A stretch of DNA of 64,000 nucleotides from Wenzhouxiangellaceae bacterium (GTDB lineage Bacteria; Pseudomonadota; Gammaproteobacteria; Xanthomonadales; Wenzhouxiangellaceae). Position 1 is the stretch's first letter. Each line of letters opens with the position of its first letter. A program made the position numbers and the translations under genes. The notes beneath the pieces were generated by a model. It worked only from the letters and a program-made list of their open reading frames with translations. It did not search any database and had not been told where the DNA came from. Where the stretch lies: assembly GCA_007695005.1 (NCBI GenBank), contig REEQ01000066.1, positions 1 to 64,000 of the forward strand. Direction: 5' to 3'. Shown here piece after piece: positions 1-42,768 of the stretch.

Positions 1-1973
1 TTGATTTGTACACCACAACAACCGATGCCAGCGGCGCCTACCAGTTGACGGTGCCCATGGGCGGCCTCGCTGAAGTCCAGATTGTGCTTGAAGCCGCCGG
101 CCCTGACCATGCCCCGACTCGCTTCGGGGGTGCACCGGAAGTCTTGTGCTACTTCGCCTGTGGCGCCGGCGACGGGTTCTTCACCCTGGAGCCGGGCGAT
201 GTGCTGGTCGATCACGACCTCGAACTCGAACCCGGCGGCCGCCTTGCCGGCACGGTGACGGCCGCAGATACTTCGGACGGTCTGCAGGGTGCCGGCGTGA
301 TTGTTTATTCCGGCACTGAGGGTCTGGAGTTTTCTCAGCTATGGTTCGCCGCCCTGACCGATGCAGATGGCCACTGGGAGCTGCCGCTGGCCCTGCCGGC
401 CGGGGACTATCACCTGATCGCCAACGCTTTTTCCAGCGGCAATTACGTCGCCCGGGCCTGGAACAGCCTCGACTGCCAGACCGGGACCTGCCCGATCCTG
501 GGTACCGACACCGTTGCCGTGACGGCCGGTAATGTGACCACTGGCATCGACTTCACACTACGGCCGGGTGCGTCGATTTCGGGCACGCTGTTGCCCGATG
601 ACGACCTGCGCGTCGTGCGCGTGGTTGATGGCTCCGGCCTCATCCTCGAAACCATTCCCCTCCTGCCTGGCCAGTCCGAATGGGCGCTGGACCAGCTCGG
701 CGGCGGCAGCTATTACCTGGAGCTTGGTCCCTCAATGGCAGGCAGCGGATCGCTGGTCAGGCGACTGCACAATGGCTTGCCCTGTCCGTTTGCCGGCTGC
801 GAGCGTGCCAGCGGCCCGCCCATCTCCGTGCCCCAGGGCGGCAGCCTGAGTGGCGTGGACATCACCTTGACCGAAGGCGGGCAGCTCCAGGGCGAGCTGA
901 TCGATGCGGCGACCGGCCTGCCGCCTGAATTCGACATGAGCACCAATCCCGGCGTGACGACAATGAACATCATCAATGCCGATGGCACGGTGGTTGGTGG
1001 TGGCTCCATCGAGATTGTCGATGGCCAGGTCATCATCCCGCCGACCGCGGCAGTACCGCCGGGCGAGTATTATCTTCGCACCTACATGAGCTGGTTTGGC
1101 GAGGGGCTAGGGTACAACAGCCTACCTACTGATCTGGCTACCTTGCCGGGCTACGCTGATGCCGCGTTTCCCGATGTCGCCTGCGCCGGCCAGGGCTGCG
1201 ACCTGGGCGCTGCACAGACGGTCAGCTTTTCGGCTGGAGAGATCACGAGCGTCACCATCTCGATCGAGCGTGGCTCGAACGTTTCCGGCATCGTGCTCGA
1301 CGATGACTCCGGCGAGCCGATCGTCGCCGCTCATGTCAATCTGATCGACGCGGCTGGTCAGCGACTGGCCGTCACCCGCACCAATGCCGACGGCGAATTC
1401 TTCTTCGGCGCCTTCCCGGCCGGCAGCTATTTTCTGCGCACCAGCATGTCGTCGCGATCCGGGCCCGGCGTCAGTCCCCGTCAGTTCCCTTACTTTGATC
1501 GTATCCACGGCAGCAGCGAAAACTGCTCGGAGCTGCTTTGTGATCCCGGCGATGCCACGCCCCTGGTCCTGGACGGGGACACTGATCTTGAGGGAATCGA
1601 GTTTCGGGTCACCGAAGGTCCGGTGATCAGCGGCCGTATCTTCGATCAATTTACCGGCGCCCCCATCAATCGCGGCCAGGTTGCCGTCTTCAACGAGACC
1701 GGTGTGCTGGTCGGTCGCTATGCGCTGGATTTCTTCACCGGCGCCTACCAGACCACCGCACTTGCCCCCGGCACCTACTCGATCGAACCCCTGGTGTCAC
1801 CGGCCTTCTTCGCTATCCCGGGCAGTGCGGGTGCAGCGAACGCTGCAGGTCATCTGCGCTCGTCAGGCAGCCTGACGGTCGTTGTCGAAGAAGTCGATGT
1901 TGAAGCCAATGTCAGCGTGATCGACCAGGCCATCGACCGGATCTTCCGCAGCCGGTTCATCGAGGCGGAATAG
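1..1973 (+). CDS. Secreted Cys-pair repeat protein, carboxypeptidase-regulatory-like domains (5' truncated)
   Basis: The reading frame is open through the window edge, and the first start-like codon (TTG at 6) sits inside a domain, so the gene probably begins upstream. The protein is a string of beta-sandwich modules of the carboxypeptidase-regulatory/SdrD-B-like kind, each with a core like ISGTL or VSGIVLDD followed by a DG(E/H) turn. About five modules share a preceding segment with two close cysteines (CYFAC, CQTGTC, CPFAGC, CAGQGC, CSELLC), then a beta-rich stretch. The paired cysteines suggest disulfides and therefore an extracytoplasmic location. The C-terminus is IDRIFRSRFIEAE, a variant of a tail also found on the proteins at 22885 and 42056. 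The signal peptide, if any, lies outside the window. Function is unknown; an adhesive or surface role is only a guess. Confidence 0.75.
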   Translation, partial: DLYTTTTDASGAYQLTVPMGGLAEVQIVLEAAGPDHAPTRFGGAPEVLCYFACGAGDGFFTLEPGDVLVDHDLELEPGGRLAGTVTAADTSDGLQGAGVIVYSGTEGLEFSQLWFAALTDADGHWELPLALPAGDYHLIANAFSSGNYVARAWNSLDCQTGTCPILGTDTVAVTAGNVTTGIDFTLRPGASISGTLLPDDDLRVVRVVDGSGLILETIPLLPGQSEWALDQLGGGSYYLELGPSMAGSGSLVRRLHNGLPCPFAGCERASGPPISVPQGGSLSGVDITLTEGGQLQGELIDAATGLPPEFDMSTNPGVTTMNIINADGTVVGGGSIEIVDGQVIIPPTAAVPPGEYYLRTYMSWFGEGLGYNSLPTDLATLPGYADAAFPDVACAGQGCDLGAAQTVSFSAGEITSVTISIERGSNVSGIVLDDDSGEPIVAAHVNLIDAAGQRLAVTRTNADGEFFFGAFPAGSYFLRTSMSSRSGPGVSPRQFPYFDRIHGSSENCSELLCDPGDATPLVLDGDTDLEGIEFRVTEGPVISGRIFDQFTGAPINRGQVAVFNETGVLVGRYALDFFTGAYQTTALAPGTYSIEPLVSPAFFAIPGSAGAANAAGHLRSSGSLTVVVEEVDVEANVSVIDQAIDRIFRSRFIEAE

Positions 1974-22884: not shown

Positions 22885-24246
22885 ATGAAGAATCGGCTGG
22901 TATGGATCCTTGCCGCGTGCGGCCTGCTGAGCGGGGCGCTGATCGCGCCGGCAATGGCCCAGAAGGTCTGGACAGGCAGCATGGACGAGGACTGGCAGCT
23001 TGCTGGCAACTGGAACCCCAGCGGCGTTCCTGCGGCCAGCGATCCGGTCGTGATCGACGGACCTGAGGGTACTACCTGGCCCCGTTTGGAGCAGGCGACC
23101 GGGCTGGCGCAGAGCCTGGTCCTGGGGCAGGCCCAGCGTGGCCGGTTGACCCTGGGCCAGACTGCAGTGCTGACGGCTCAATCCCTGTTGCTGGCCGAGC
23201 AGGCCGGCAGTGATGCCGAGCTGGTCATCGAAGGCGTGGTTGGTGGCCAGCTCGACCTGCCTGCCGTGATCGGTGGCAGTGGCGATGCGCGGCTGGTGTT
23301 TCGGCACAACCAGTCAAACTACGAATTCCGGCGGCCATCCGGAACGCCGGTCGATACCAGCGGCAGCCTGATGCTGGTGCAGGACCAGTTTTTCGCGACC
23401 CGCCTGCTGGGCCAGCACAGCCACACCGGCGGGACCCGGGTAAGACGCGGTGATCTAGACCTGTTCGGCGGGCAGCTGATCCATCCTGCGGTTGCCCTGG
23501 AGGTAGCTCCGGAGGCGTTTGATATCGGTGCTCTTTTTATCCGCAACGGCGCGCAGGCCGATGTCGGTCCTACGCTTGTTGCCGGCGCATCGGGCAGCTT
23601 TGCCAATCTTCAGGTTGGCCCGAACACAACGCTGGATATCAATGGTCTGCTGGCGGCCGGGGTCTCGGGCACGGCCTTTGTTGATGCCACCGGAGGCGTA
23701 CTGACTGCGCAAGCGGTCAGCCTGGGCAGCAATCTGCCCGAGTCCGGGCAGGCGCAACTGAACGTGCTGGGCGCCTCCGGCCGGGTCTTCGTCAGCGGAG
23801 ATGTCGATCTGGGCGGTCCAGCCGGTCTTGCCCGATATGCCATATCCAGCGGCGGTCAGTCAGAAATCGGCGGTGATCTGCGCGTAGGAGTTGGCGCTGG
23901 CGGCAGGGCCGAGCTGGCGCTGGGCGTAGTGGCCAGCCTGACCGTTGACGGTCAGCTTGGCCTGGACAACCTGGCGACATTGCATTTGGAGATCGATACC
24001 TTCAGCCACCCCGTGATCCAGGTCGCCAGCGTGTTGATCGCGCCCGGAGCCGCTCTGCAAGTGCCCGATCCGACCGATCCACCCGATCCGGGCAGCAGTT
24101 TCGTCGTGCTGGAGGCGCCTGGCGGGATCAGCGGCACATTCGGCACCGTCAGCCTGCCGGTTGGCTGGTCCCTGATACAGGAGTCCACCCGCCTGCTGGT
24201 GGCGCTTGCCCTCGCCGACGAGATCTTCGCTGACCGATTCGAGTAG
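22885..24246 (+). CDS. Secreted autotransporter-passenger-like protein with IFADRFE tail
   Basis: 453 residues from ATG 22885 with GGGAGA upstream. MKNRLVWILAACGLLSGALIAPAMAQ is a signal peptide. The N-terminus VWTGSMDEDWQLAGNWNPSGVP is the motif that opens many beta-helix/autotransporter-associated repeat proteins. HSHTGGTRVRRGDLDLFGG resembles an autotransporter-associated beta-strand repeat. Gly/Ala/Val-rich beta repeats continue to residue about 400. There is no C-terminal barrel; instead the protein ends ALADEIFADRFE, the tail shared with the proteins at 1 and 42056. Probably a secreted or surface beta-helix; function unknown. The spacer to the divergent antiporter gene (131 bp) should hold both promoters. 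Confidence 0.8.
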   Translation: MKNRLVWILAACGLLSGALIAPAMAQKVWTGSMDEDWQLAGNWNPSGVPAASDPVVIDGPEGTTWPRLEQATGLAQSLVLGQAQRGRLTLGQTAVLTAQSLLLAEQAGSDAELVIEGVVGGQLDLPAVIGGSGDARLVFRHNQSNYEFRRPSGTPVDTSGSLMLVQDQFFATRLLGQHSHTGGTRVRRGDLDLFGGQLIHPAVALEVAPEAFDIGALFIRNGAQADVGPTLVAGASGSFANLQVGPNTTLDINGLLAAGVSGTAFVDATGGVLTAQAVSLGSNLPESGQAQLNVLGASGRVFVSGDVDLGGPAGLARYAISSGGQSEIGGDLRVGVGAGGRAELALGVVASLTVDGQLGLDNLATLHLEIDTFSHPVIQVASVLIAPGAALQVPDPTDPPDPGSSFVVLEAPGGISGTFGTVSLPVGWSLIQESTRLLVALALADEIFADRFE

Positions 24247-42055: not shown

Positions 42056-42649
42056 TTAGAGAAACTGGCCGAGAACGGGTTCGACTTCGAAGCGCTGGCG
42101 GAACAGTTCATCTGGATCGATGACCTGGATCAGGACCGGCAATATCAGCTCCAGCGGATCGTCCAGGCCGCTCAGCGTCAGGCTGATCTGATGCAGAAAA
42201 GCCGTGTTGAACTCGCTGTCGGCATCGGCGCTGAGGATGATCTTGATCCGCTTGGCGGAGCCCGTCGCAATCTCCCCATGCTCCGACTCCAGCGCGATCT
42301 GGCTGCCATCGGCGCGAGTCTGGCGCGCCGTCAGGCTGACCGCTGCATCGCCATTGTTCTCAATCAGCAGCCAGGCATGGGCGCGACGACCCGGCGGCAG
42401 GTCGGCGGTAATGACTGCTTCACCGGCGGTGGAACAGTTGACTTGTTCGCCCAGCTCGGCACCGCGGCCGACGCTGACCACGACCGGCAGCTGGCTGGAG
42501 GCGGCCAGCACACAGCTTGCCGGCGATGGCGGTGACGGCGGGTCTGGTGCCGGTCGGCCTGAACCGCGCTGCTGGGCACCGGGGCTGGCAGAAGCCAGCA
42601 GCATGCATCCAGCAAGGGCAATCGGTCCGAACGAAAACAGTGCGCGCAT
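42056..42649 (-). CDS. Exported protein with DELFRQRFE tail motif, function unknown
   Basis: 197 residues from ATG 42649 (MRALFSFGPIALAGCMLLASASPGAQQ, signal peptide; the GCMLLAS stretch could instead be read as a lipobox-like region). Then a Pro/Ser-rich linker, and a single beta-sandwich-like domain with phrases such as HAWLLIENNGDAAVSLTARQTRADGSQ. Near the C-terminus DPDELFRQRFE matches the tail of two other secreted proteins in the window, but 9 further residues follow (VEPVLGQFL). Two cysteines in the mature part. It is divergent from an ECF sigma gene. Confidence 0.7.
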   Translation of the reverse strand: MRALFSFGPIALAGCMLLASASPGAQQRGSGRPAPDPPSPPSPASCVLAASSQLPVVVSVGRGAELGEQVNCSTAGEAVITADLPPGRRAHAWLLIENNGDAAVSLTARQTRADGSQIALESEHGEIATGSAKRIKIILSADADSEFNTAFLHQISLTLSGLDDPLELILPVLIQVIDPDELFRQRFEVEPVLGQFL

Positions 42650-42768
42650 GGAGTAGGTGGTAAGGGGTCTTCGATTCAGCAACTAGTGTAGTGCCTTGCG
42701 CGATCAATGTGAAACGCAAGCCTGATGTACCATCCACCCTCAAGTATTCTGGATCAGGCGCCGACCCC

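Follow-up and report, generated by a model that had tools for sequence, protein, structure and literature searches.

What does it mean that three proteins of different architecture, encoded in one window of 64,000 nt (bases 1-64000 of contig 75 in a 3.31-Mb genome of 218 contigs), should end in nearly the same short peptide? The first-pass annotation of this DNA had noticed the shared tail and suggested that it might be a sorting or secretion signal. The features concerned are the following.

1935..1970, + strand: relaxed tail DRIFRSRFIEAE of a CarboxypepD_reg-repeat protein, the gene of which starts beyond the contig edge; stop codon at 1971-1973
22885..24246, + strand: gene for a 453-aa exported protein with a Sec signal peptide (22885-22962), a terminal tail and no Pfam match
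24217..24243, + strand: tail DEIFADRFE, the sole strict match of the window, with the stop codon immediately 3'
42056..42649, - strand: gene for a small exported protein (likely ATG start at 42649; a TTG at 42682 is also in frame) with a sub-threshold match to a HYDIN/VesB-type Ig domain
42059..42112, - strand: relaxed tail DELFRQRFE of the gene 42056..42649, followed by VEPVLGQFL and the stop codon

All three tails are present exactly where they had been placed, both by reading of the ORFs and by a six-frame scan; the + strand ORF that ends at 1973, for example, runs through DRIFRSRFIEAE directly to its stop codon. The pattern D.[ILVF]F...F, in which the residue before the last F is unconstrained, matches these tails and nothing else in six frames of the whole window, in each case 1, 4 or 10 residues before the stop of a long ORF, and a looser scan of the 345 ORF ends of the window returned the same three. 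The tails at 1973 and 42056 deviate from the strict pattern defined below, reading IFRSRFI and LFRQRFE, respectively. The carriers had been described as unrelated and secreted. Their Pfam results indeed differ for all three (CarboxypepD_reg repeats, no match, and the sub-threshold HYDIN/VesB-type Ig match), and a signal peptide is visible on the proteins encoded at 22885-24246 and 42649-42056; the N-terminus of the first protein lies beyond the contig start.

For the genome-wide searches, we used the strict DNA pattern [LIVFM]-F-x-D-[G/R]-F-E, with D at position 4 and E at position 7, and its reversal as the control. The source genome contains 34 strict matches compared to a single match for the reversed pattern, and the strict pattern was matched in 54 of the 61 genomes of the first set, with up to 78 matches per genome in the relatives. 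When 299 genomes from the order (Xanthomonadales/Lysobacterales) were scanned, the motif was found in most families and was missing from the others, and 318 gammaproteobacterial genomes outside the order remain at the control level, with a maximum of 5 matches. A scan of named taxa identified genuine tails in Dokdonella, Tahibacter, Chiayiivirga, Pseudofulvimonas, Marinicella and Lysobacterales drafts, the matches in other taxa being mostly due to chance and located in short out-of-frame ORFs; the IFRDGFE-type ends that the annotation mentioned for related bacteria are confirmed in the five named genera. The consensus that emerges is D-x-[ILV]-F-x-D-[G/R]-F-E, usually with 0-7 residues beyond it. 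The third codon positions of the motif vary freely and its reading frame is fixed, which indicates that selection acts on the peptide and rules out a signal at the DNA level; a chance origin is ruled out by the reversed-pattern control. That the tail is a genuine sorting tag specific to the order is near certain as far as its status as a tag is concerned. No earlier description emerged from literature searches on the motif or on sorting signals in these genera, and a scan of 13 tail regions per library (NCBIfam, Pfam) for a curated tail model produced neither a recurrent model nor a tail model. At the end of one ORF of the source genome (L325), the tandem motif pair LFGDRFELPPDQLFQDRFE occurs at a single C-terminus.

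The motif is concentrated at the ends of proteins without being confined to them. In five samples (the source genome, one match per relative, G041, G044 and five further genomes), 112 of the 126 matches are located within 30 residues of the stop codon (binomial P about 3e-95 against an assumed 10% by position), and the attempt to refute the annotation by finding the motif no more frequent at C-termini than elsewhere, with about 10% expected near the stop, failed. Immediate termination after FE is seen in 99 of 203 ORFs, a sample partly selected for this feature, and most of the others stop within 12 residues. As the annotation had maintained, no hydrophobic helix follows the tail in these ORFs, and neither the helix nor the basic end that is required of GlyGly-CTERM, MYXO-CTERM, PEP-CTERM and LPXTG tags is present. 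Moreover, CTERM and LPXTG tags occupy the extreme C-terminus only, whereas copies of the present motif are found immediately behind the signal peptide, where the mature chain begins (L181 in G041, L272 in G109, and L341:1-555 in the source genome), within a loop of a sugar-dehydrogenase-like protein (L047) and between domains (L015, L051, and L333). Of the proposed C-terminal signal, the C-terminal bias therefore stands and strict C-terminality does not, and the motif looks like a position-tolerant surface peptide. The N-terminal and internal copies argue against a membrane-anchor or sortase (cut-and-join) tag and against a beta-signal, neither of which would tolerate such placement, and they fit with recognition of folded cargo. 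In another protein of the source genome (L342:1904-3349), the motif separates a DUF5122 propeller from a C-terminal segment that begins with SDRRLKTGV, similar to the beginning of a self-cleaving S74 chaperone domain; Pfam gave no confirmation of this similarity.

With respect to export, a permissive predictor recognized a signal peptide on nearly all source-genome carriers with a visible start. A crude predictor scored 13 of 17 carriers in G044, where at least two of the remaining ones have a signal peptide by eye, and the figures in G041 are 8 of 16 carriers vs 18 of 135 other genes, the share of only half among the carriers reflecting the uncertainty of start codons in that genome. No lipoproteins were called among the scored carriers. 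The scoring in G044 and the source genome bears out the claim that the motif sits on Sec-exported proteins. The combination of a Sec signal peptide (by the crude predictor) with soluble, folded cargo is that of type II secretion system (T2SS) substrates; type I substrates, with an uncleaved C-terminal signal and no N-terminal signal peptide, do not correspond to these signal peptide-bearing carriers, and the C-terminal CTD domain of type IX (T9SS) cargo is missing. The carriers encompass S8 proteases, ExeM/NucH nuclease, beta-propellers, HYDIN/VesB-type Ig (choice-of-anchor D) proteins, and proteins with CarboxypepD_reg and Big repeats, among others, and further include M36-like and choice-of-anchor D/J domains; elsewhere, the M36-like, ExeM nuclease and choice-of-anchor families bear T2SS-linked GlyGly or MYXO tags. 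A search for a solved-structure relative of one carrier gave no match. Two large exported paralogues of the source genome (L327:1619-6031 and L336:394-4785) combine DUF4397, MBG_3 and Exo_endo_phos domains with a terminal tail, and the former strongly matches the ExeM/NucH nuclease model; two small exported proteins (L330:5743-6078 and L340:2328-2681) consist solely of a TIGQ...GGFW/SGFW domain and the tail.

The fifth position of the strict pattern has switched from G to R in concert across the source genus. In the 30 genomes of this genus, 673 of 696 strict matches have R; the position is also R in 38 of 40 in G035, is mixed in G030 (R in 9 of 43), and is R in only 9 of 558 matches elsewhere in the set (totals summed by hand). 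Dozens of unlinked genes changed this residue together, as would be expected if one trans-acting receptor reads all the tails, and the concerted change implies such a shared receptor.

Phylogenetic profiling for a co-occurring machine, which the annotation had suggested, yielded a correlation with a particular T2SS. The secretin GspD splits into two clades, A and B. The clade A operon is gspC-D-E-F, often with adjoining ftsEX, and its GspC bears a PDZ domain; clade B is Xps-like and occurs throughout the order, including motif-free relatives. The profile threshold for clade A was E<=1e-180, fragments at contig edges being counted too where they were seen, and the Xcs-like sister group (E about 1e-163) was left uncounted; tail-rich denotes at least 5 matches, a cut-off chosen after the counts were seen, and the tables were compiled by hand. 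So defined, clade A is present in 83 of 87 tail-rich vs 10 of 212 tail-poor genomes among the 299 (Fisher P about 6e-57), in 29 of 33 tail-rich vs 5 of 56 tail-poor genera (P about 4e-14), and, in families where both states occur, in 9 of 12 vs 5 of 56 genera (P about 7e-6). The sole tail-rich genomes of family f2 (G109 and G202) both possess clade A, as do all four tail-rich genera of family f12, and the first set contains two genomes without a T2SS (G054 and G037), both devoid of tails. All examined tail-rich genomes that are at least 90% complete encode a clade A or clade B GspD, in some cases as contig-edge fragments; no full secretin was found in three source-genus drafts that are 73-84% complete (G012, G014, and G028). 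The Xps-like clade B secretin, which provides an internal control, was ruled out as the tail partner because its presence is independent of the tails.

Discordant genomes exist in both directions. Representatives of three genera of family f8 (G088, G114, and G151) have real tails and only clade B, with clade A GspC and GspD absent, and a 90% complete draft (G079) resembles them by pattern count; conversely, G102 and G089 (same operon) and others have clade A and no tails. Furthermore, the GspD trees point to mostly vertical inheritance of clade A, so that common descent accounts for part of the agreement. A tie between the tail and a single T2SS clade is the most likely reading, at about even odds; the broader reading of the tail as a sorting or secretion signal is supported by the C-terminal enrichment, the Sec-exported carriers and the IFRDGFE ends of the relatives. 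At the tail loci in G041 and G044 and the named loci, the tail genes are unlinked to type II genes and no neighbor gene recurs, which rules out a conserved neighbor as the machine. A sequence search for GspC, GspD and GspE residues that track the G-to-R switch showed a general gain of acidic residues and no more. In the source genome (L211:22-7408, contig 22), ftsE-ftsX directly follow gspC-D-E-F, and several families of the order share this gene arrangement (L215, L313, L319, and L320).

In the account that we propose, the tail marks Sec-exported proteins as a short sorting tag without a transmembrane segment, and a common periplasmic receptor would recognize it once the protein has folded. 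The receptor would most likely be part of, or partner to, the clade A T2SS, with the PDZ domain of clade A GspC as the putative docking site, and the tagged protein would thereby be picked for passage through the outer membrane, probably for display on the cell surface. Taken as a whole, from the tag through to surface display, this account appears evenly poised between being right and wrong. The narrower proposition is that the tail acts as a portable T2SS signal, short and linear, which the PDZ domain of clade A GspC or some other component of clade A would read and which has co-evolved with its receptor, as reflected in the G-to-R change. This proposition is tentative, with somewhat less than an even chance of being correct. 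GspC PDZ domains bind substrates, such as the disordered PelI loop and the VesB Ig domain (PMC12369372), and T2SS signals can be flexible loops (PMC7949064); together, these precedents make it plausible that clade A GspC reads a hydrophobic end peptide. In Wenzhouxiangella AB-CW3, many exported proteases are expressed and no protease activity is found in the medium, and the authors inferred outer-membrane anchoring of the lytic proteases (PMC7691419). Along with the carrier families that elsewhere are GlyGly- or MYXO-tagged, these reportedly cell-bound proteases suggest surface display as the likely outcome.

Among known systems, the closest parallels would be GlyGly-CTERM/rhombosortase and MYXO-CTERM/myxosortase, which are likewise short C-terminal, T2SS-linked tags on many unrelated Sec-exported proteins (PMC11980579; PMC13393428). 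Their cargo overlaps the tail carriers in M36-like proteases and ExeM nucleases; unlike these tags, the present tail lacks a transmembrane helix or basic end and has N-terminal and internal copies. The interactions of PelI/Pel3 loop 3 with OutC and of the VesB Ig domain with EpsC similarly pair a PDZ-bearing GspC with an element of the folded substrate that is flexible or has an Ig fold (PMC12369372; PMC7949064), but those determinants are composite or structural and substrate-specific, whereas the tail is one short linear consensus on dozens of substrates. The C-terminal sorting domains of the T9SS in Bacteroidota also represent one element that serves many secreted proteins and one outer-membrane machine; however, these are domains of about 70 residues, compared to about 7 residues for the present gammaproteobacterial tail, and the T9SS model TIGR04183 weakly matches the first window protein (23.9 bits) in an internal repeat rather than in the tail. 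The outer-membrane beta-signal has C-terminal aromatic residues as well, but the domain content of the carriers is not that of beta-barrel proteins, and the last residue of the motif is E, after which up to about 10 more may come.

How the T2SS selects its folded substrates has yet to be settled, although the determinants are generally regarded as structural (PMC7949064). If the proposed account is correct, a seven-residue consensus with a genome-wide one-residue switch makes T2SS selection testable by deletion and grafting, the surface proteome becomes predictable for an entire bacterial order, and the destination of many hypothetical proteins is explained; the tail may be a short address label such as has long been sought for the type II machine.

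The main rival to export recognition is retention after export, and sequence alone does not separate the two. Under retention, any T2SS would export the carriers, and a separate outer-membrane or matrix receptor would hold the tail at the cell. We consider this unlikely, although it is a serious contender. The surface-anchoring tags of the carrier families elsewhere (GlyGly-CTERM, MYXO-CTERM, choice-of-anchor), the protease activity missing from the medium of AB-CW3 with the inferred anchoring (PMC7691419), and the persistence of tails in the three f8 genera with clade B only are all compatible with it; however, retention predicts no tie to one T2SS clade, and clade A tracks the tail strongly, and a candidate receptor gene was not found beside the tail genes. 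It is also conceivable, if improbable, that the tail and clade A are both ancestral in the order and were lost together for unrelated reasons, with the tail serving another order-specific machine. The mostly vertical inheritance of clade A and the discordance in both directions would accord with such a history, but the agreement extends across genera inside the two-state families (P about 7e-6), and no such agreement with the tail is seen for clade B, which occurs throughout the order.

A third alternative, in which the tail has no role as a secretion signal and instead docks onto a chaperone, a quality-control protease or an assembly factor of the periplasm, appears highly improbable. A short hydrophobic peptide containing aromatic residues at chain ends, with tolerance of position, is what such docking might involve, but the carriers resemble surface or extracellular proteins (S8 proteases, ExeM nuclease, propellers), the motif is missing from whole lineages that are obliged to keep general periplasmic factors, and the type II profile is not predicted. 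That the tail, whose DGFES we take to resemble the start of LamG-like domains, is merely a remnant first strand of such a domain (FxDGFExGxxxxW) with no sorting role is barely credible, given that the residues past FE are variable and usually absent, that the logo lacks an SGDxxxW continuation, and that active selection is required for the concerted switch from G to R. Within the source genus, two genomes of 1.8 and 2.1 Mb (G023 and G007) have kept clade A and contain only 1 and 4 strict tails, respectively.
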